From: a virus | Length of the DNA: 36,410 nucleotides | Strand: one strand, 5' to 3' | Virus record (IMG/VR): IMGVR_UViG_3300009009_000026 | Coordinates: 1 to 36,410 of that record | Part shown: in pieces, positions 1,187 through 23,992 of the stretch | Position numbering within the stretch: the stretch's first letter is position 1 | How the letters are laid out: each line of letters begins with the position of its first letter | Notes under the pieces: generated by a model | What the model saw: the letters and a program-made list of their open reading frames with translations, nothing else | What the model was told of the DNA's origin: nothing | The model's database searches: none | Program-made: the position numbers and the translations under genes

Positions 1187-3109
1187 ATGGCTGGTTATTT
1201 TAACGTAGCATACCCACCAAACGAGGATTATATCCGGTTCAATGGTGGAAAAAATAGCAAGATCCAGAAGAATTTGATCTTGGACAACCAGTCACCCGAC
1301 TGTTTGAATGTTATTTTCGATGATGATTCGGCACAAACCAGGCCGGGATCAATCAAGATCAACACAGCAGCGGCAGGATCATTTGCATGCGACGGATTCT
1401 ACACAAGACACGTTGTAAATTCCACCGCAGAGAGTATGGTGGCTTGGTTCGGTGGGACCATGTTCGTTTTGAGCGGCACGAGCTTCAATCCAATAGCAAG
1501 CGCAACGTCACTCTATACGGCTGGCACGAAAGTATTTGCTGTCGAGTATCAAAACCATATGTTTTTTGGTGGAGGATCAGCAAATATCCCATACAAATAC
1601 AATGGGACTGATTTCACTAGACATGGAGTATATCCAGCCACAACTACCATGTCGGTCAACTCAGGAGCAGGTAGCAATCTTTCAGGTGATTACATATGGG
1701 GAATGACCTACATCAACAGCGCCTTGGTTGAAAGCGACATCAGTCCCTTTACAACCACGTTTACCCTTGCTGCTACCGGAGCCTCGCTGACCAGTGTGCC
1801 GATTGCACCTCAGTCATGGGGAGTAGCCACAAGGGCAATCTACAGGTCAGAGGCCAATAGTGCTGCGGTTTTGTACCGGGTAGGAACTATAGCCAACAAC
1901 ACAGCGACAACCTTCGTCGATAACGTGGCCGATGCTGCTTTGGGTGAAGAGCCTCCGGTGGACGCCAACGTTCCACCACTGTATGGACCGTGCCTCTACC
2001 ACCAGTCGCGGCTATTTGTGATCGGTAGGTATCCATCCGATACAGTTGACCGGGTTTATTACTCGGATCTTGGCAATCCTTATGTTTTTGGTACCACCAA
2101 TTTCATCAATGCAGGTGACCAGACCAGTGATGTGCCGGAAGCCTTGGGACTGTGGGACAACTATCTGGTGATAACCGGAGCGCGTGGTACCAGCTGGCTC
2201 ATCTACATGCCAGACACAGATGATACCAACTGGGTTCAATTGAGACTACGAAGCCAGTTTGGATCAAAATCACCGCTCGGCATGTTTGAAGCGATGAACT
2301 TTTTGATCTTTCCTGCTGTTGAAAAAGACAAGTTTGTGGGCTTTGGGGCACTGTCAGCATCCGGGCTTGAGCCAACGGCAGCATTGACAGATGTTGGTGC
2401 TGTGGCTGGTGACATGCTCTCGACTGTCATTGAAGATGAGATGTTTGCAGCAAACAGCGCATATTTGAAAAACATTGCCTCGATTGTGTACAAAAACAGA
2501 GCCTACATCACAATGACATCGGGATCCGGCACGACAAACAACCGGATCTTTATATTTGATTTCTCTCGCAACGGATTGGAAAAGAGCCAAAAGTTCACCT
2601 GGACGCCATGGACCGGGATGAATGCCGCCCAGTTCACTGTTTATGAGGGTGACCTCTATTTTGCAACATCCGATGCGACTGGCTTTGTTTATAAAATGAA
2701 CCAAACGGCATATAATGATTCCGGCGCAGCCATCAACTCATATTTTTGGACCAAAGAATTTGCAGGTCAACCGGCACACACCACCTGGTTCAAGGATTGG
2801 CGGTTTGGAAACCTTCTCTATGGTCTTCTGGGTGATTGGCTCATGGGATTTACCGTCAGGACCGATTCGGATAAAGGTGATGGTATCACTACAGATATCG
2901 ATTGCAATCCCGGTCAATCAACGTGGGGATCCATGGTCTGGGGTTCTGATATCTGGGATGCTGGCCGGGATGTGAAGGATATCAAATCACCACTTGGTCA
3001 ATTTCGCGGCAAGCGCATCCAGTTCAAGTTTTCAAACAAAAACGTGGTCAATGCAGGATTCAAAATTGTCGGGTTGAACCTCACTTATAACCTGAAAGGA
3101 AAGAGATAA
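1187..3109 (+). CDS. Tail nozzle / hub-like protein (P22 gp10 or T7 gp12 type)
   Basis: The gene encodes 640 residues. The frame is open from 1136, but the ATG at 1187 follows a GAGGG ribosome site at 1178-1182 and is preferred. The sequence is almost entirely short beta strands with repeating aromatic and Gly turns (for example MVAWFGGTMFVLSG, NHMFFGGGSANIPYKYNG, YDGxLYF-like repeats), consistent with a beta-propeller tail nozzle or packaged-DNA stabilisation protein. The region around residues 585-600 contains WGSMVWGSDIW, shared with the small protein at 89-523. The stop overlaps the next start as TAATG. The nozzle assignment rests on size, fold impression and gene order next to the adaptor. 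Confidence 0.55.
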   Translation: MAGYFNVAYPPNEDYIRFNGGKNSKIQKNLILDNQSPDCLNVIFDDDSAQTRPGSIKINTAAAGSFACDGFYTRHVVNSTAESMVAWFGGTMFVLSGTSFNPIASATSLYTAGTKVFAVEYQNHMFFGGGSANIPYKYNGTDFTRHGVYPATTTMSVNSGAGSNLSGDYIWGMTYINSALVESDISPFTTTFTLAATGASLTSVPIAPQSWGVATRAIYRSEANSAAVLYRVGTIANNTATTFVDNVADAALGEEPPVDANVPPLYGPCLYHQSRLFVIGRYPSDTVDRVYYSDLGNPYVFGTTNFINAGDQTSDVPEALGLWDNYLVITGARGTSWLIYMPDTDDTNWVQLRLRSQFGSKSPLGMFEAMNFLIFPAVEKDKFVGFGALSASGLEPTAALTDVGAVAGDMLSTVIEDEMFAANSAYLKNIASIVYKNRAYITMTSGSGTTNNRIFIFDFSRNGLEKSQKFTWTPWTGMNAAQFTVYEGDLYFATSDATGFVYKMNQTAYNDSGAAINSYFWTKEFAGQPAHTTWFKDWRFGNLLYGLLGDWLMGFTVRTDSDKGDGITTDIDCNPGQSTWGSMVWGSDIWDAGRDVKDIKSPLGQFRGKRIQFKFSNKNVVNAGFKIVGLNLTYNLKGKR

Positions 3110-8926: not shown

Positions 8927-9805
8927 ATGAATAAACTTGTTATCGTGACCGGTGCTACCGGCACTCTTGGTTCCCGAATCATGCAATACCACCTTGATAA
9001 CAATGATACGGTCATTGGGTTGTCGAGGTGTGACCACAAGATTGCACAGTTCAGCAAGAAATTCCCTGATGTCCATTGGTGCCTGGGTGATATCCGAAAC
9101 GATCTGCACAGCGTACTACCCAACAAGGCGCATATCGTGTATCACTGTGCGGCATTAAAGCATGTTGATATGGGAGAAAACTATCCACAGCAATATCATG
9201 ATGTGAACTACTCAGGAGCAATGAACGTATTCCATCATATCGATTGCGGTAAATTCGTGTTTTTCAGCACTGACAAGGCGGTTCTACCGATCAACTTCTA
9301 TGGCATGGCCAAGGCTCTTGCAGAAAAGCACCTGATAGCGATCAGAAAGGCTACAGGACGCAACATAAAGGTGTTCAGATGGGGTAACATTGTAGGGAGC
9401 CAGGGATCGGTTATCCACACGTTTATCCGGCAGCTGCTGTCACCGGATAGGACCGTTAAGATCACACATCCCGACATGACAAGGTTCTGGCTCAAGATAG
9501 AGGATGCTGTGCAGTTTGCAACAATGGACAGCCATGGTGTTGATGAGGTGCTCATTCACCCACTTATTAAGGCCGCCAAGATCACCGATTTTGTGGAGGC
9601 TATTGCTACTTGTCTGGCACTTCCCAACATGGAGGATTCCTACAAGATCGAATATACCGGGATCAGGCCGGGTGAAAAGATCCATGAGCATCTGCGATCG
9701 GAGCATGATTTTTGTATTCGCAGCGACACAGCAGCACAGTACACCAAATCAGAACTGATTGGCCTTGTCGGACCTACCGTTTCAAAATATCTTGCTGGAG
9801 AATGA
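8927..9805 (+). CDS. PseB/CapD-type UDP-N-acetylhexosamine 4,6-dehydratase (extended SDR)
   Basis: The gene encodes 292 residues of the extended short-chain dehydrogenase family. The Rossmann motif GATGTLG is at residues 9-15, STDKAV at 114-119 and the YxxxK pair at Tyr125/Lys129. Then come FRWGNIVGSQGSVI, THPDMTRFW and GIRPGEKIHE, the signature blocks of PseB, FlaA1 and CapD enzymes. These oxidise, dehydrate and (in PseB) C5-epimerise UDP-GlcNAc, the first step to pseudaminic acid. It is about 40 residues shorter than typical PseB. It leads a + strand cassette with a cytidylyltransferase, an aminotransferase and an acetyltransferase. Whether it is inverting or retaining cannot be told by eye. 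Confidence 0.8.
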   Translation: MNKLVIVTGATGTLGSRIMQYHLDNNDTVIGLSRCDHKIAQFSKKFPDVHWCLGDIRNDLHSVLPNKAHIVYHCAALKHVDMGENYPQQYHDVNYSGAMNVFHHIDCGKFVFFSTDKAVLPINFYGMAKALAEKHLIAIRKATGRNIKVFRWGNIVGSQGSVIHTFIRQLLSPDRTVKITHPDMTRFWLKIEDAVQFATMDSHGVDEVLIHPLIKAAKITDFVEAIATCLALPNMEDSYKIEYTGIRPGEKIHEHLRSEHDFCIRSDTAAQYTKSELIGLVGPTVSKYLAGE

Positions 9806-9806
9806 T

Positions 9807-10130
9807 ATGACAAATATGGAAATCATTTTGCTGATTGTCAGCCTTGGTATGTCTTTAACTACGTTCGTTTTAACTCTGTGGTACCGAAATCTTTCTAGGA
9901 AAGCAGAACTCAAGGATGATCTGATTGCCAGACAAGATGAGATGCTGGATCTCGCCAAAGAAAAGAATGTTCTTTTGACCAAGCAGCTGTATGAATCCGA
10001 CAAGAAAGCAAAGTTGTCTGGTGATGTTCTTGCTGTGCTCAACGACATGAAACAAGGTGGTGCAGTGTTTGAAGTAACTCGGATAGATCGTGGTGACATA
10101 TTTTTCCACAATGGGAGCCAGTATCGATGA
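9807..10130 (+). CDS. Small membrane-anchored coiled-coil protein
   Basis: I choose the ATG at 9807, which follows a GGAG site at 9797-9800 and lies one base after the previous stop, giving 107 residues. Residues about 4-23 (MEIILLIVSLGMSLTTFVLT) form one transmembrane segment, followed by a charged, helical 55-residue stretch and a short C-terminal beta-like tail. The stop overlaps the next start as ATGA. I do not recognise it. It lies inside the sugar cassette and may anchor the enzymes at the membrane, or be an unrelated lysis-type protein. Confidence 0.65.
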   Translation: MTNMEIILLIVSLGMSLTTFVLTLWYRNLSRKAELKDDLIARQDEMLDLAKEKNVLLTKQLYESDKKAKLSGDVLAVLNDMKQGGAVFEVTRIDRGDIFFHNGSQYR

Positions 10131-10861
10131 AGAAACTAAACAAACGTGTTGCCATTGCCATACAGTGTAGGCTGGCTTCATCGCGGTTCCCCAAGAAATC
10201 GATTGCTCCTCTGTCGAGCACAGGGATCAGCTGCATAACGTCACTTATAAAGAACTGCACCGTATGTGCAGATCATGTGGAAAACAAACATGATCCAAAC
10301 ATAGATGTCCAGTGTGACGTTTGGGTTCTAGTTCCCGACAATGAACTGGAGTTCTGGAATGAGTTTCTTGCTCACAAGCATGTCAAGGTGCTTGGAGGAT
10401 CCCCGACTAATGTGTTGTCGAGATACATTGATTTATGCCAGTACAAATATGACTACATCATGAGGCTGACAGCCGACTGTCCAAACGTGCCGAATCTGGC
10501 TATGAATAAAGCGATCTGGACCGCTATTTATCACGATCTGGACTACTGCTCAAATGTTTGGGAAAAATACCGCACATCAATCGATGGTCATGACATCGAG
10601 GTGATGTCGTTTGCTGCTCTGCAATGGTTATCAGCCAATGCCGAGACGATAGCGCACAAGGAGCATGTGACTATTGCAATCCGTGAAATGATGCCAAAGG
10701 CACTCAAAAAAGGGTGTCTCGTGACAAAGGAGGATTTGTCGCATATTAAACTGTGTGTTGACACACAGGAAGAACATTCAGCGGCATTCCAGCGTTTTGA
10801 AGCGGCATATCAAAAGCGCAAGGGAGCTATGGAGGCAGGTTTGTATGTACACGAATACTAA
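10127..10861 (+). CDS. SpsF-like cytidylyltransferase (CMP-sugar synthetase family)
   Basis: The gene encodes 244 residues. The N-terminal nucleotide-binding block RLASSRFPKK (15-24) corresponds to the RxxSxRxPxK loop of CMP-nonulosonate/CMP-Kdo synthetases and SpsF. RLTADCP (113-119) carries the metal-binding Asp117, and HDIEVMSF, KEHVTIAI and LCVDTQEE follow in the SpsF order. In this family the enzyme activates a sugar acid with CTP. Here the likely substrate is a nonulosonic acid, given the neighbouring PseB-like and distant NeuB-like genes. The start overlaps the previous stop (ATGA). SpsF proteins are less well characterised than PseF/NeuA, so substrate is inference. Confidence 0.75.
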   Translation: MKKLNKRVAIAIQCRLASSRFPKKSIAPLSSTGISCITSLIKNCTVCADHVENKHDPNIDVQCDVWVLVPDNELEFWNEFLAHKHVKVLGGSPTNVLSRYIDLCQYKYDYIMRLTADCPNVPNLAMNKAIWTAIYHDLDYCSNVWEKYRTSIDGHDIEVMSFAALQWLSANAETIAHKEHVTIAIREMMPKALKKGCLVTKEDLSHIKLCVDTQEEHSAAFQRFEAAYQKRKGAMEAGLYVHEY

Positions 10862-12059
10862 GATGTGGGATGATCGCGCCAAACTGTGCATTGCGCAGGG
10901 AGCACTAACCAACAGCAAACGTCCAGACACAGATGTTATGGGTGTCTTTCCTACTCATTTTGAGAGCGGCTATGGACCATATCTTTATACTGATAAGCGT
11001 GATCGTTATCTTGATTTTGTTTCTGGCCTTGGTGCCATAAACCTTGGCTATGGCAACGAGCAGTTGGAAAACGAGGTTGCCAAAGCGGCAAAGGGTGGAT
11101 GCCTGTCGGGTAGCACTATTCAAGAGATCATTACAGCAGAGAAAATCAAATCCACTTTTCACTGGGTAGATCGCGTCAAGTTTGTCAATGACGGTACGGA
11201 AGCCTGTATGGCAGCTATTCGCATGGCTCGCGCCTTTAACGGAAAAAATATTGTGCTGTGGGAGGGATATCACGGCTGGTATGATGAAGCGACAGCATTG
11301 AATGACAATGCCAAAGGCACACCATGTGGTCATAAGATAATAAATTTGAATGCTGTGAACTTGGATAGTGATTTAAAAAATGTATCTGCTATTATCCTTG
11401 AGCCAGTCATGCTCGATGATAGTCGAGAACGTATCGAATATTTAAAAAAGATTCGTTCAATATCTGATGGGACAGATATCGTTCTGATTTTCGACGAGGT
11501 TGTGACTGGCATGCGCTATCCCTCTCTTTCTGTCTCCAAACACTGGGGAATCTATCCTGACTTGTTATGCCTCGGTAAAGCCTGTGCCAATGGGTACAAA
11601 ATAGGCGCGGTAGCAGGTCGTTCGGATATTATGGACGGTGACTACTTTGTGTCAGGAACATACTTCGGACATATCCCTACGCTGAAGGCGACAGAGGCCT
11701 GTCTGCATCTGACCAAGCATGACAACAAATATGATGCCAAGGATTTGAACGAGAAGGCTTTGGATTTTAAGGAACGGTTCAACGGACTATCACCCTACAC
11801 TGTAAAGCTTGAAGGATGGGGAGCCAGGATGAACTGGGTTGGCTCGGATCTCAACCTTGCTCTTTTCAGGCAAACACTCATCGAGAACCGGATTTTCACG
11901 AAGAATACATTTTTCCTCAACCATGCGACAAAGCATCATATTGATGAATTGTTTTCAGTTTGCCAGTATGCGATAAAACATATCAATTCTGGATCAGCAG
12001 TTATGAAGGGACCAATGCCACGCAAGCCTGTGGCACAAATAGCAAGGGAGCGGCAATGA
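10845..12059 (+). CDS. Class III PLP-dependent aminotransferase (glutamate-1-semialdehyde aminomutase-like)
   Basis: The gene encodes 404 residues. The frame is open from 10755, but the ATG at 10845 follows GGAGG at 10831-10835, so I place the start there, overlapping the previous gene by 17 bp. Family blocks in order are NDGTEACMAAIRMAR, the aromatic PLP-stacking WEGYHGWYDE, IFDEVVTGMR with Asp217, the Schiff-base Lys245 in CLGKACANG, and GTYFGHIPTLKA. Such enzymes transfer an amino group to a carbonyl. In the PseB context it could aminate the 4-keto sugar, a role normally taken by a DegT-type PseC. Alternatively it aminates another position or substrate. Confidence 0.8.
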   Translation: MYTNTKMWDDRAKLCIAQGALTNSKRPDTDVMGVFPTHFESGYGPYLYTDKRDRYLDFVSGLGAINLGYGNEQLENEVAKAAKGGCLSGSTIQEIITAEKIKSTFHWVDRVKFVNDGTEACMAAIRMARAFNGKNIVLWEGYHGWYDEATALNDNAKGTPCGHKIINLNAVNLDSDLKNVSAIILEPVMLDDSRERIEYLKKIRSISDGTDIVLIFDEVVTGMRYPSLSVSKHWGIYPDLLCLGKACANGYKIGAVAGRSDIMDGDYFVSGTYFGHIPTLKATEACLHLTKHDNKYDAKDLNEKALDFKERFNGLSPYTVKLEGWGARMNWVGSDLNLALFRQTLIENRIFTKNTFFLNHATKHHIDELFSVCQYAIKHINSGSAVMKGPMPRKPVAQIARERQ

Positions 12060-18170: not shown

Positions 18171-18408
18171 CAAAAACCAAGTTGACTATTTGTCAAAGCA
18201 GATTGTGAAAATAACAAACCACATTGAGAAGCAGCTGGACGACAGGTCTGCACTACTCAAAAGCTACAATAACGAGATCAAAGACAGCAAAAAGCGGCTG
18301 AAAGTGTACGCTAAAGCCGTAGGTGCCGAATCACTGGAGCCGCTCCAGGAAATCATGGGAGAATTTGAACTGGCAGAACTCGAAAAGATTGGATTTCAAA
18401 ATGGTTGA
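18166..18408 (+). CDS. Small coiled-coil protein
   Basis: The gene encodes 80 residues, mostly one long charged helix (KQIVKITNHIEKQLDDRSAL, then NNEIKDSKKRLKVYAKAV) with an acidic C-terminus. There is no enzyme motif. It starts at an ATGA overlap and overlaps the amidase start by 8 bp, so it belongs to the resolvase-amidase operon. The function is unknown. Confidence 0.55.
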   Translation: MNKNQVDYLSKQIVKITNHIEKQLDDRSALLKSYNNEIKDSKKRLKVYAKAVGAESLEPLQEIMGEFELAELEKIGFQNG

Positions 18409-18835
18409 TATGCTCAGGGATCCAAAAACAATAAACAAGATCATAATTCATTGCAGCGACAGCGATGAACCGGAGCATGATAACATCGAGACAATCCGGG
18501 AATGGCATATTGGACGCAAAAAGTGGTCGGATGTGGGGTATCATTATTTTATAGACAAGAAAGGGAGGATCTTTACAGGTCGGCCACACGAGAAGGTAGG
18601 AGCGCACTGTATTGGACAAAACGCCAAAAGCATCGGTATTTGTGTGTCTGGACGAAAGGATTTCTGGGAACCTCAGTTTAGATCACTGGCGTTTATCGTC
18701 AAAGATCTTATGAGAACTTACAACATCAGTCGAAACGAGATCTATCCCCACAATTTTTTCAATATCGCAAAAACGTGCCCTAATTTCAACATCGACAAGA
18801 TATGGGTATTTGATAGCGAAAAAAATAAATGCTAA
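18401..18835 (+). CDS. N-acetylmuramoyl-L-alanine amidase, T7-lysozyme-like endolysin
   Basis: The frame extends up to 18323, but ATG 18401 starts the conserved domain cleanly and gives 144 residues. Zinc ligands of the Amidase_2 family are visible: His17 in IIHCSDS, His117 in YPHNFF and Cys126 in KTCPNF. Tyr47 in VGYHYF and Lys124 two residues before the Cys match the catalytic pair of T7 lysozyme. The enzyme cuts the amide bond between muramic acid and the stem peptide. No signal peptide is present, so a holin is needed; none is assigned with confidence, although small membrane proteins occur at 9.8, 12.6 and 13.8 kb. Confidence 0.88.
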   Translation: MVDMLRDPKTINKIIIHCSDSDEPEHDNIETIREWHIGRKKWSDVGYHYFIDKKGRIFTGRPHEKVGAHCIGQNAKSIGICVSGRKDFWEPQFRSLAFIVKDLMRTYNISRNEIYPHNFFNIAKTCPNFNIDKIWVFDSEKNKC

Positions 18836-18877
18836 GATGAAAGTAGATGGTTCTTTGTTACAAAGGGAGGTGAACAC

Positions 18878-20059
18878 ATGAAACATTTACTGCATTTATT
18901 GGCCTTATTTTCAATGCTTTCGTTAACCTCTTGCTCCACGGTGGACGTTCCTCAAGATAAACCCATTATCACTGTCATTCCGAAGGATGCCGTTATTTCT
19001 TCAAGTGGAAAAATGTACAGGACAGGTTTGAAAATCCCGTTGGGGTTTAAACCAAAAAACATCATCAAGGCTGATCTTGGCGAGGATCTACCGGCAACAT
19101 TCGACTGGAGAACCAAAGTTCAGCTGTCGCCAATTGAGAACCAAGGCGGGTGCGGAAGCTGCTGGGCATTCTCCACAGCAGCAACATTTCAGGATGTAAA
19201 GCGCATTTTCGGTGAAACTGAGGATCTCTCAGAACAGTATTTGCTGTCATGTGCCAATCCATCGGAATGGTCCTGCAACGGAGGATTCTTCGCGCACGAT
19301 GCTCACAAATCACCCAGAGGTGGAGTGCTTGCAAGTGAGTATCCCTACACTGGGACAGACTCAGCATGTAAATCAGGACTCAACTACCGTTGGAAACTCA
19401 CTTCATGGGCATACCTTCCCGGTGGTGAGCAGCCAAGCGTCAACGAAATTAAGGCTGCCATTTACAAATACGGTCCTGTTTCGGTTGGCGTGGCTGCCGA
19501 CAGTGAATTCAGCAACTATACAGGTGGAATTTTTCGCGGATCGGGTTCAACTCAGCTTAACCATGCGGTGAATATAGTTGGATGGGGATCTGACCACTGG
19601 ATCATGCGCAATTCGTGGGGACAATGGGGTGAAGGCGGCTACATGCGCATCAAATTCGGTGCCAATGGTATCGGTGCATGGGCAAACTTTATCGTCTACA
19701 ACAAAGAGCCAGATCCTCCAGGACCGGGACCGGATCCAGATCCCAATCCTAACCCAGATCCAGAGCCATGTTCTCCACAGCCTTATGCTGACACCGGCTA
19801 CGGTGATTCGATCAAAGTGAGGGTTGGTGCGCAGGTGTTTCTTGGAACTAAAGCGCGTCCTGGCACATACTACTATTGGACAGCCGAACCCGATTTTGAC
19901 AACGGAGGCAAACCTGTCGAAGCCAAGATCAAGTATCGTCCTAGAGTAACCAAACGGTTGACGGTGCATGCTGTCACCCAGTGCGGTGAAGCTACAGATT
20001 CAGTGACAGTTCACGCAATGCAGGGATACAGATCCCAAGCAGTGCCAGAACTGGATTGA
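18878..20059 (+). CDS. Papain-family (C1A) cysteine protease lipoprotein with C-terminal Ig-like domain
   Basis: The gene encodes 393 residues behind an excellent AGGGAGGTG ribosome site. A lipoprotein signal ends at lipobox LTSC (Cys19). The peptidase has Gln89, Cys95 in GCGSCWAFS, His229 in LNHAVNIVGWG and Asn245 in RNSWGQWG, plus the SCNGG disulfide motif, so all papain catalytic residues are intact. A Pro/Asp/Asn-rich linker (about 278-298) leads to a beta-sandwich-like domain with two Cys. The pro-segment is short (about 20-70). It would act on the membrane surface or in the periplasm. It follows the endolysin and ends in a strong terminator. Confidence 0.88.
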   Translation: MKHLLHLLALFSMLSLTSCSTVDVPQDKPIITVIPKDAVISSSGKMYRTGLKIPLGFKPKNIIKADLGEDLPATFDWRTKVQLSPIENQGGCGSCWAFSTAATFQDVKRIFGETEDLSEQYLLSCANPSEWSCNGGFFAHDAHKSPRGGVLASEYPYTGTDSACKSGLNYRWKLTSWAYLPGGEQPSVNEIKAAIYKYGPVSVGVAADSEFSNYTGGIFRGSGSTQLNHAVNIVGWGSDHWIMRNSWGQWGEGGYMRIKFGANGIGAWANFIVYNKEPDPPGPGPDPDPNPNPDPEPCSPQPYADTGYGDSIKVRVGAQVFLGTKARPGTYYYWTAEPDFDNGGKPVEAKIKYRPRVTKRLTVHAVTQCGEATDSVTVHAMQGYRSQAVPELD

Positions 20060-20081
20060 TAATCAGCTTGGTTCAACGTAT

Positions 20082-20113
20082 GCTCCTATTAAAACCTAAT
20101 AGGAGCTTTTTTT
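20082..20113 (+). terminator. Rho-independent terminator overlapping the next gene's ribosome site
   Basis: GCTCCTATTA (20082-20091), a 5-nt loop and TAATAGGAGC (20097-20106) form a perfect 10-bp stem followed by seven T (20107-20113). The 3' arm contains AGGAG at 20101-20105, eight bases before the ATG at 20114, so the same bases act as the Shine-Dalgarno of the metallopeptidase gene. Confidence 0.88.
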
Positions 20114-20920
20114 ATGCGTGAAACACTACTCGCAATTATCGTAATGCTATGGCAACCAGTGCTCTATGCAAACATCCCGATAAATCCATGGGACAGTGCC
20201 GACGATGGCACCACGTGGCACATATCAGAAAAAGAATTCCATGAAAGAATAGATCAGGTTTATAGCGTTTATAGTCCGATATTCAAGGAACTGGGTATAA
20301 ATTTCTGGTTTGAGAGAAGATGGGAATCAAAGACGGTAAACTTGTTTGCCGACATATGGGAAAATCAGTGGAACAAGCAATACAAAATCATCGTGCATGG
20401 TGGGCTTGCAAGGAGAGTGCAGCTAACAAAAGATGGCTTTTCAGTAGCTCTTTGTCATGAACTTGGGCACTTATTGGCCGGGTTTCCCTTAAAAGACTAC
20501 ACAAAATATGCATCCGAGGGTGCTGCGGATTATTACGCTACTCATGTTTGTGCCAAGAAAGTTTTCGGAGCAATGTTGAAAAAGGCACCATTAAAGATTG
20601 TAAGCGTAACAGTGCCGATATGTGATAAGGCATATGAAACGAAAATGGATATAGATATTTGCTACCTGACATTTTTTGCAGCGAAAAGCCTCGCTGATGT
20701 TATCAGCCAAGTGACGCAGGAATATCGATCACCTGATGTAGATATCAAAGACAGTTACAAAGCACCTTATACGGTAAAACAGCATACTTCTAGCCAGTGC
20801 AGATTAGATACCCTAATCGCAGGCATGCTATGCGACAAGCCATGGAATGATAAAATAATACCAACAAATAAAAATGCAGTTTGCATAAATACCCGTCCTG
20901 AATGCTGGTATAAGCCATAA
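20114..20920 (+). CDS. Secreted HExxH zinc metallopeptidase
   Basis: The gene encodes 268 residues. A signal peptide (about 1-19, LLAIIVMLWQPVLYA) is followed by a gluzincin-like active site: HELGH at 115-119 and a downstream EGAADYYA block with Glu135 as the probable third zinc ligand. The C-terminal half has several Cys, ending QCRLDTLIAGMLC and RPECWYKP. I associate that ending with Bdellovibrionota-type secreted proteins, from memory. Expression should depend on read-through of, and hairpin opening at, the terminator directly upstream. It forms a pair of exported proteases with the preceding gene. The substrate is unknown. Confidence 0.78.
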   Translation: MRETLLAIIVMLWQPVLYANIPINPWDSADDGTTWHISEKEFHERIDQVYSVYSPIFKELGINFWFERRWESKTVNLFADIWENQWNKQYKIIVHGGLARRVQLTKDGFSVALCHELGHLLAGFPLKDYTKYASEGAADYYATHVCAKKVFGAMLKKAPLKIVSVTVPICDKAYETKMDIDICYLTFFAAKSLADVISQVTQEYRSPDVDIKDSYKAPYTVKQHTSSQCRLDTLIAGMLCDKPWNDKIIPTNKNAVCINTRPECWYKP

Positions 20921-21003: not shown

Positions 21004-21666
21004 ATGGCAAAACAAAGAGACATCACCGGACAAAAATTCAATAGATTAACCGCAATAGAATTTAGCCACATAAAAAATAAAAGATATTATTATTGGTTGT
21101 TCAAGTGCGATTGTGGAAAAACATTATTAATGCAAAAAGCTCACGTTTTGAGTGGAAATTCAAAATCATGTGGTTGTTTGAACTTAGAATTGATCGCGCA
21201 AAGACCTATAACTCATGGACACACCAAAAACAAAAAATTTAGTGGATCTTATCGTGCTTGGCGAGCAATGAAAGATAGGTGCGCTAGACAGAAAGAATAT
21301 GAAAATATTGAAATCTGTAATGAATGGTTAAAATTTGAAGTTTTTTTTAATGATATGGGTGATAGGCCAAAAGGAAAAACTTTGGATAGGATAGATAACT
21401 CAAAGGGATATGAAAAAGATAATTGCAGGTGGGCAAATAGACAAGAACAAATAAGAAACACCGGATATAGGGTTAGAAAAACAGGGATTAAATTTAAAGG
21501 TGTTACAAAAACAAACTGTAATCGGTTTAGGGCAAGAATTGGCATTGACTACAAACGTATTGAACTAGGTTGTTTTGAAACCGAACTAGAGGCCGCAAAA
21601 GCCTACAATGAAGCCGCTAAAAAATACTTTGGCGCATTCGCACAATTAAATAAATTAAATCCATAG
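21004..21666 (+). CDS. HNH homing endonuclease with AP2-type DNA-binding domain
   Basis: The gene encodes 220 residues. The N-terminal 60 residues contain CDCGK and CGCLN, a zinc-finger-like region. A central HNH nuclease domain follows (LDRIDNSKGYEKDNCRWA, about 128-145, with an NRQEQIRNT helix). The C-terminal AP2 domain is KFKGVTKT...FRARIG...LGCFETELEAAKAYNEAA. This is the usual layout of free-standing phage homing endonucleases. The gene is AT-rich compared with its neighbours and sits alone between the metallopeptidase and SNase-like genes. No intron halves are obvious on either side. Confidence 0.85.
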   Translation: MAKQRDITGQKFNRLTAIEFSHIKNKRYYYWLFKCDCGKTLLMQKAHVLSGNSKSCGCLNLELIAQRPITHGHTKNKKFSGSYRAWRAMKDRCARQKEYENIEICNEWLKFEVFFNDMGDRPKGKTLDRIDNSKGYEKDNCRWANRQEQIRNTGYRVRKTGIKFKGVTKTNCNRFRARIGIDYKRIELGCFETELEAAKAYNEAAKKYFGAFAQLNKLNP

Positions 21667-21716: not shown

Positions 21717-22028
21717 ATGCTCCATAACTGTAAAGTAACTCGTGTTGTCGATGCCGATACATTCAAAGGCACAGTCTGCCTTGATTTTGGCGTCACCATT
21801 GCCGTGACTGTCAGGCTGTTCGACTGTGACGCATGGGAAGTTACCGGCAAAGATAAAAAGCGCGGTGAGGAGGCCAAGGAATACGTTGAAGGGCTGATCG
21901 GAGGAGCCAACGTTATCATCGATCCCCACAAGCAGGATTCGTTCGGTAGATGGCTTTGCGAGGTGCTGATAAAAGGCAGGTCACTGAACAGCATCCTGGG
22001 TGAAAAGGGTTATCTCAAATCAAAGTAG
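21717..22028 (+). CDS. Staphylococcal-nuclease-like (SNase fold) protein
   Basis: The gene encodes 103 residues with a GGGG ribosome site. VTRVVDADTFKG (about 7-18) matches the Ca-binding strand of thermonuclease. VRLFDCDAWE supplies the Arg/Glu pair, and DSFGRWLCEV the second Arg. It is shorter than typical SNase domains (about 130-150 residues) but keeps each active-site block, so it may be an active, compact nuclease. There is no signal peptide. A 6-bp inverted repeat (21671-21685) and AT-rich DNA upstream suggest its own promoter. Confidence 0.7.
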   Translation: MLHNCKVTRVVDADTFKGTVCLDFGVTIAVTVRLFDCDAWEVTGKDKKRGEEAKEYVEGLIGGANVIIDPHKQDSFGRWLCEVLIKGRSLNSILGEKGYLKSK

Positions 22029-23164: not shown

Positions 23165-23824
23165 TCATGGTATGCAAGGCATTTCTGTCAGTCGGGAATT
23201 ATATGTACCAGTCGTGGCATCGGGATCCTTGGCAGGAGTAAACTTTGGGAACCACCAGAGGTTCAAACTGGATCCTTGACTGTCGTGATGGATCGGTTCG
23301 ATCTCGGTCATTTGAGCAGAGCAGCTTCTCTGGATCCTGACGTTTGAGAAGTTGGAGGTGTTCTTGACGATGCAGTAGTAACCCAGTCGGTTATAAAACT
23401 GAAACATGACATTCGAGCACTCTTGTCTCAAGTGGACAATGTTCAAAATGGGTATGGTCGATGTCTCCAAATCACTGATAGCGATACCCTCAGATTTCCA
23501 GCTGGTAGCGTCCAGCGTCCTGGCTACCGTATTCTCAGGGAGCAGGATACCCTTGCGAATAAAAGCGTCAACACACAAGTTGGCATCTGGAGTATCGAGG
23601 AAGGTATAGCTACCAGGGATATCGGCATTGGCTCCCAATCGTGGGTAGGCGACAGGTGCAGAGTAGATCGGGCAATCCTTGCCTTCACAGTTTTGGGATG
23701 GATCCTGTTTGACCGGATCGGTCAGGCTCGCGGCAGCAGGTACCGAGCGCTTTGCAGGGCGATCATCACCGCATCCGTTGATAAAAATTAAACTCGCTAA
23801 ACTAAACATAACTAAATTTTTCAT
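23165..23824 (-). CDS. Phage-encoded lipoprotein of unknown function
   Basis: The frame begins at 23872, but ATG 23824 starts a clear lipoprotein signal (MKNLVMFSLASLIFINGC) with an AAAGGACTGGA ribosome site, giving 219 residues. After lipidation at Cys18 there is a polar linker and then a Cys-containing domain (six or more Cys, suggesting disulfides in the periplasm). It has its own terminator and faces a divergent gene across about 170 bp, so it looks like an independently expressed accessory gene. Candidate roles include superinfection exclusion or altering the host envelope; these are guesses. Confidence 0.7.
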   Translation of the reverse strand: MKNLVMFSLASLIFINGCGDDRPAKRSVPAAASLTDPVKQDPSQNCEGKDCPIYSAPVAYPRLGANADIPGSYTFLDTPDANLCVDAFIRKGILLPENTVARTLDATSWKSEGIAISDLETSTIPILNIVHLRQECSNVMFQFYNRLGYYCIVKNTSNFSNVRIQRSCSAQMTEIEPIHHDSQGSSLNLWWFPKFTPAKDPDATTGTYNSRLTEMPCIP

Positions 23825-23992
23825 GATTCCAGTCCTTTCAACATATTCAATCAGCTTCAACAACCCGACCATCGGGCAATCCCTCTATTGCAAAAGTTGG
23901 TACACTGCTAACTACCCATAATCACAAGAAACTAGGTGTAAATGAAATCGATTAGTGTATAATAAATTGACAGTAACAGCATGAGGTGCAGC

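Follow-up and report, generated by a model that had tools for sequence, protein, structure and literature searches.

Exported papain-type proteases encoded beside endolysin genes of uncultured phages, and their possible role in host-cell release

Why a phage should encode two proteins that resemble exported proteases directly behind its endolysin, and whether these genes belong to the phage at all, are the questions raised by the locus described here. The DNA analyzed (hereafter, the window), a linear virus record from IMG/VR, is 36,410 bp long and includes terminase, portal and major head genes. A first-pass annotation had described a lipid-anchored papain-type (C1A) protease with an Ig-like domain, followed by a Sec-exported zinc peptidase, and had proposed that the two might assist lysis, block superinfection or change the host's surface. 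Both ORFs were found at the coordinates given there, 18878-20059 (393 aa) and 20114-20920 (268 aa). The features of the locus are as follows.

18404..18835, plus strand: Amidase_2 endolysin (PF01510, E = 3.5e-18; PHROG 822 amidase, E = 7.9e-36)
18830..18838, plus strand: candidate extended -10 element, TGcTAAGAT, located at the stop codon of the amidase gene (a weak match, 4/6, in this record)
18865..18872, plus strand: Shine-Dalgarno sequence of the C1A gene, GGGAGGTG (from sequence)
18878..20059, plus strand: lipoprotein C1A papain-type protease (PF00112, alignments, model and fold match, lipobox table)
20082..20113, plus strand: intrinsic-terminator-like hairpin with a 10 bp stem, a 5-nt loop and seven T, ending at the metallopeptidase start codon (from folding)
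20114..20920, plus strand: Sec-exported HExxH...E...D metallopeptidase-like protein (nine-homologue alignment, model, weak M48 signal)
21004..21666, plus strand: HNH homing-type endonuclease (PHROG 374, E = 6.6e-69; synteny; GC 0.336)
21717..22028, plus strand: small SNase-like nuclease (PF00565, E = 2.6e-6; PHROG 452, E = 2.3e-16; kept in relatives)

The first of the two proteins is indeed a papain-type lipoprotein with the complete Cys/His/Asn triad. Residues 71-263 match Peptidase_C1 (PF00112) with an E value of 9.3e-48 and a score of 163.6 bits, against a cut-off of 20.7, and the sequence can be aligned to ficin, papain and cathepsin K. A predicted model (pLDDT 83) matches ervatamin and procathepsin K in Foldseek (E = 1e-18 to 1e-19). 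Gln89 (oxyanion), Cys95, His229 and Asn245 are invariant across 22 phage homologues. The N-terminus, MKHLLHLLALFSMLSLTSC-S, comprises a signal at residues 1-18 with the lipobox LTSC, the lipid-bearing Cys19 and Ser at position +2, and the lipobox and the +2 Ser recur in the C1A protein of every relative with the same gene order. About 50 residues separate the lipid Cys from the catalytic domain. The layout thus runs from a short pro-like segment (about 37-70) through the catalytic domain and a Pro/Asp/Gly linker to the Ig-like domain that had been annotated (about 298-381), for which the model predicts beta strands at 311-381. The Inhibitor_I29 helical prodomain of I29-type cathepsin zymogens is absent, Peptidase_C1 being the sole Pfam match. 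The best fold matches of the model are proenzymes (procathepsin K, E = 1.2e-19), and the sequence alignment to procathepsin K begins at residue 47, where only the C-terminal stretch of the propeptide is aligned. The short stretch before the catalytic domain may therefore act as the end of a propeptide that covers the cleft. According to the Lol rule of E. coli, Ser at +2 sends a lipoprotein to the outer membrane. By this rule, the C1A protein is predicted to be located at the outer membrane.

The second protein carries a cleavable-type signal peptide, HELGH at residues 115-119, Glu135 and Asp139, that is, the HExxH motif and the downstream Glu ligand (E...D) expected of an M48-like gluzincin. 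Several conserved Cys residues past the signal peptide and a CRLDT motif are also present. The window protein has no match in Pfam, PHROG or NCBIfam; three of the nine family members give a Pfam M48 signal (best E = 0.0022), which is below the cut-off, and the window protein is not among them. Its model has a pLDDT of 61 (75-89 in the core) and a zincin-like core. With this model, VIA-align places M48 members and minigluzincins (BepA, 3c37, jannalysin, selecase) among the best neighbors at Z of 8 or less, and Foldseek finds no significant match (E above 0.05). A sequence search of the PDB finds nothing relevant. Like the periplasmic M48 gluzincin BepA of E. coli (Z 7-8), the protein has the HExxH helix, the downstream E...D helix and a secretion signal; unlike M48 proteins and BepA, it has no Pfam M48 match and no TPR, and its C-terminal half is Cys-rich and contains CRLDT. 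The annotation of an exported HExxH protein thus stands as to signal peptide and motif, whereas zinc catalysis is not universal in the family: in one of nine homologues (L009, 4714-5520), HQIGH replaces HEIGH, so that the catalytic Glu appears to be lost from an otherwise conserved protein.

Both protease genes are under strong purifying selection. For the C1A gene, dN is 0.11 and dS is 1.66 (window versus L002); for the metallopeptidase gene, dN is 0.18 and dS is saturated. Because dN is far below dS and synteny is kept in independent contigs, these are not chance ORFs.

The order amidase-C1A-HExxH was found in seven further non-identical phage records, whose proteins are 48 to 84% (C1A) and 37 to 78% (metallopeptidase) identical to those of the window. 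In L002, L003, L007, L009 and L011, the SNase-like gene follows, and L008 has the same order plus one extra exported ORF ahead of SNase; the conserved block ends with the SNase-like gene. The upstream endolysin is kept in all window-family relatives. In the window it lacks a signal peptide, and its ORF was listed from 18323, although a start near 18404 is more likely. In L005, two paralogous metallopeptidases (1122-1877 and 2280-3092) flank SNase behind a single C1A gene. The HNH gene was rejected as a member of the block: since its GC content is 0.336 and it is missing from L002 and L003, it is a recent homing-type insert between the metallopeptidase and SNase genes.

These records also settle whether the block is a bacterial contaminant or a product of misassembly, a scenario that the first-pass annotation had named as its own refutation. 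C1A proteases are common in bacteria, which lends the idea some initial plausibility. However, it would require the same accident in seven further non-identical contigs, one of which, the L005 record (G003), is circular by a 127-bp exact terminal overlap whose junction falls within the C1A gene; it would also have to accommodate the clade of their own that viral sequences form (see below). We consider this explanation to be almost certainly wrong, and conserved synteny rules it out.

C1A relatives extend well beyond this family. A scan of IMG/VR viral contigs identified them in 49 loci, near-duplicates included, whereas 50,697 named phage records yielded one weak match and plasmids one short marginal match. 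The view that such proteases are very unusual in phages is thus borne out for named phages but not for uncultured ones. An N-terminal export signal is present in every distinct viral C1A protein examined, and 13 of 41 score as lipoproteins (the lipobox of L005 becomes visible once the contig ends are joined); many of the relatives are soluble Sec proteins. Apart from the C1A gene itself, the loci fall into 20 groups, two of them large, and no two groups have more than two genes in common.

From about 85,000 species, the 69 bacterial or archaeal C1A domains that matched best were placed in a tree with the viral sequences; 36 of the latter, the window's among them, group as a single clade (SH-aLRT 96). 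When 26 bacterial rows were added, to give 95, and four long viral branches were omitted, the 34 viral rows again formed one clade (SH-aLRT 97). As judged from these trees, the clade is phage-specific within this bacterial sample, which is incomplete. The most divergent matches (L037, L047, L048 and L051-L054) either fall outside the viral clade or have long branches, and are perhaps not from phages of the same kind. We also considered whether bacterial contigs with C1A genes are prophages with window genes, and rejected this idea, as no window-family phage genes lie beside them.

The metallopeptidase is distributed differently. Homologues are absent from named phages, and none lies near the C1A gene in the other C1A phages. 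The first-pass annotation's pairing of the two proteases consequently applies to the window's phage family, where a terminator-like hairpin separates their genes, and constant co-travel of the two was rejected. Searches of bacterial genomes returned 0/17, 0/395 and then, in another phylum, 3/398 matches, one of which is a clear relative. In this protein (L135, 574-2013, on a bacterial chromosome), the metallopeptidase module follows an N-terminal region that resembles an intein/Hint domain (TIGR01445, weak match). It is 26% identical to the window protein and shares HExGH (as HEVGH), EGxADYY (as EGEADYY) and CRLDT. The two proteins belong to one family of secreted proteins, and no Pfam model matches the window's member.

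We scanned the records with four Pfam endolysin families, and 16 C1A lineages had an endolysin. It lies within 2 kb of the C1A gene in 11 of these, compared with 2.4 expected under random placement (P about 5e-7), and at a distance of about 4 kb or more in the other five. With one representative per gene-sharing group, a near endolysin is found in 8/10 (P = 6e-7); this falls to 7/10 if the split contig L030 does not count as near, and to 5/10 (P = 0.004) if, in addition, each of the two multi-member groups is represented by its far member. The neighboring enzyme is Amidase_2 in the window family, L013, L030 and L033, M15 in L029, L032, L036, L040, L041 and L044, and GH24 in L031; PHROG-confirmed endolysins of further types lie beside the C1A gene in L016, L047 and L049. 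Because both the endolysin families and the relative orientations differ, the neighborhood probably arose more than once, rather than being one inherited cassette.

Sequences around the C1A gene suggest how it might be expressed. The -10-like element at the end of the amidase gene, 32-48 nt ahead of the C1A gene, is weak in the window, but a perfect TGnTATAAT occupies the same place in four of nine homologues (L003, L007, L008 and L009). Of stretches of this size, 0.15% contain such a match. One mismatch is present in L011, L013 and L005, and L002 and L015 have 4/6 bases, as does the window. A hairpin and T-run precede the metallopeptidase start in all eight loci (the window, L002, L003, L005, L007, L008, L009 and L011). 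Folded singly, locus by locus, these intergenic hairpins differ in sequence and keep the stem, with z scores of -4.2 to -6.8 and, for each, 0/200 shuffles as stable. Given the -10-like element and the terminator-like hairpin, the C1A gene resembles a separate transcription unit, and the metallopeptidase gene looks as if it is expressed by read-through. The 3' arm of the window hairpin holds GGAG, the only Shine-Dalgarno-like element for the metallopeptidase gene, so the hairpin may control metallopeptidase synthesis via termination or by hiding the Shine-Dalgarno sequence.

The best reading of these data, to which we give roughly even chances, is that the secreted proteases act on the envelope at lysis or release; the data suggest that secreted proteases help some phages to break open the host cell or to get out of it. 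What we observed directly are the genes with their signals and active-site residues, their synteny and selection, the viral clade and the proximity to endolysins; that the C1A protein is active, lies at the outer membrane, has substrates in the envelope and works at the time of lysis is our inference, along the following lines. It would be a phage-specific exported cysteine protease that is functionally part of host-cell release, and its transcription would probably start from a separate promoter where the endolysin gene ends. After Sec export and lipidation, it would be delivered to the outer membrane, on its inner side, and would cut envelope proteins while the endolysin breaches the wall, causing the outer membrane or a surrounding protein mesh to yield. 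In the window family, a periplasmic gluzincin-like peptidase, presumably made only when transcription continues past the terminator, would add a second activity or help in activation or processing.

A comparison with spanins (Rz/Rz1 and u-spanins) and disruptins is instructive, as these share with the C1A protein a gene beside the endolysin, an outer-membrane lipoprotein and a presumed job in the last step of lysis (PMC6139136; PMC12819732). The C1A protein is likewise a lipoprotein beside an endolysin, its outer-membrane location predicted from the lipobox and Ser at +2. However, it is not a spanin: it is an enzyme with a catalytic triad and has no C-terminal membrane segment. No i-spanin partner or C-terminal transmembrane domain was found, and the coding strand of the block has no conserved transmembrane gene besides signal peptides. 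In a survey of 677 phages, 91 (13%) had no recognizable spanin (PMC6139136), and how such phages accomplish the outer-membrane step is an acknowledged gap (PMC6139136; PMC12819732). A C1A-type activity could serve them. More broadly, and tentatively, exported or lipid-anchored cathepsin-like proteases might constitute a third, proteolytic route of outer-membrane or envelope disruption in many uncultured phages, besides spanins and disruptins. A secreted, intact-looking protease beside varied endolysins in unrelated phages is thus a concrete candidate for opening the outer membrane where spanins are lacking.

The reading as lysis or release proteases draws on the endolysin-C1A order in all window-family contigs and, in part, on integrases. 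No tyrosine integrase is encoded in the nine window-family records (one circular, most incomplete), which speaks for a lytic role and mildly against lysogenic conversion there. Several observations point the other way: the distant endolysins in five lineages, the many soluble Sec relatives, the loss of the catalytic Glu from the L009 metallopeptidase, and other lipoprotein or membrane ORFs of the window, among which a spanin may exist. Moreover, given the possible promoter and the terminator-like hairpin, the C1A gene could be expressed independently of the endolysin gene. Of the roles proposed in the first-pass annotation, help with lysis gains from the recurrent endolysin adjacency, and superinfection block and surface change are possible but gained nothing specific.

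The main rival is superinfection exclusion or surface remodeling, in which an outer-membrane protease lipoprotein made during infection would trim receptors or further surface proteins, so that sister phages are not adsorbed and virions are not trapped on debris. Receptor-blocking lipoproteins are familiar from T5 (Llp) and phi80 (Cor), the C1A gene has a promoter-like element of its own and a terminator-like hairpin, and the window also carries surface-glycan genes. But this explanation does not predict recurrent adjacency to endolysins of different families, nor does it sit well with the absence of a tyrosine integrase from the window-family records, and we regard it as unlikely. Fainter still is the prospect that the proteases aid release after lysis by attacking extracellular or debris protein, such as an S-layer, matrix or the prey remains of a predatory host, rather than the outer membrane itself, much as baculoviruses use a cathepsin together with a chitinase. 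The strong cathepsin-like domain, an Ig-like domain that might serve in binding, and a predicted structure whose nearest viral counterparts include cathepsins would suit this role, whereas the lipid anchor holds the window's enzyme on the cell. We find it less probable again that the genes are a moron or host-takeover cassette that aids the infected cell or lysogen, for instance through protein digestion or periplasmic control, and that entered at a permissive place near lysis genes. Such an origin would agree with the promoter-like and terminator-like elements that flank the C1A gene, with integrases in 5/16 other C1A phages and with a C1A GC content of 0.49 against 0.41 in both neighbors, but gene GC over the window already spans 0.34 to 0.49. 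The fixed position, strong conservation and lack of a tyrosine integrase in the window family also argue against it, as does the persistence of endolysin proximity where gene order otherwise differs.

Several parts of this picture have precedents. C1A enzymes, viral cathepsins and isolated phage papain-domain annotations are already known. The window protein shares with C1A papain/cathepsin peptidases (PF00112) the catalytic domain, the Gln-Cys-His-Asn residues and the fold, and differs from them in being phage-encoded and in having a bacterial lipoprotein signal and an extra Ig-like domain but no I29 prodomain. Baculovirus V-CATH works with a chitinase at the end of infection. Viral cathepsins (V-CATH and those of giant viruses) are likewise virus-encoded, secreted C1A enzymes that are near in predicted structure; the likeness is by fold only, and the window phage differs as a bacterial virus whose enzyme has a lipid anchor and a peptidoglycan amidase as partner. 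If our reading is correct, this virus-cathepsin theme of insect viruses extends to bacteriophages, which would offer new lysis enzymes. Other C1A-type phage proteins include PHROG 16701 ('peptidase') and annotated papain-domain proteins of uncultured Caudovirales and of Streptomyces phage Shady; the match is weak (E = 1.9e-6), and no role or gene context for these proteins was found in the literature. The 'papain-like amidases' of phage tails are unrelated to this theme. In TA-group transposable prophages of Leptospira, a predicted 'cysteine protease' is encoded in the lysis module beside a holin/antiholin pair (PMC8705779). It was read there as a putative endolysin of unstated family, and its likeness to the window protein is by description only (PMC8705779). 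This remark is the nearest that we found: exported C1A enzymes are not described as a lysis-associated phage family in the open-licence papers searched.

Some further observations concern neighboring genes. Surface-sugar genes occupy positions 8927-12059 of the window (a Polysacc_synt_2 epimerase with E = 1.8e-56, a weak CTP transferase and a class-III aminotransferase), and may alter glycans of the host or virion. Other lipoprotein or membrane ORFs are also present in the window, including a second lipoprotein at 23165-23872 on the minus strand, whose probable start is the Met of MKNL at about 23824; it is approximately 80% identical in L002 and L003 and has no family match. Exported thioredoxin-like proteins are encoded near the C1A gene in L040 (11433-11906; PHROG thioredoxin, E = 6e-5) and, as judged by eye, in L049 (2452-2958). 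Such a neighbor possibly keeps the active-site Cys reduced, which would be useful to a thiol enzyme if its compartment is oxidizing. Finally, inspection by eye showed a short ORF product (about 90-120 aa) with the pattern ...EDGK.S..D... beside C1A or lysis genes in L016, L031-L034, L036, L039 and L041. It is often accompanied by a coiled-coil ORF with one membrane span, and the two are possible unnamed parts of lysis cassettes.
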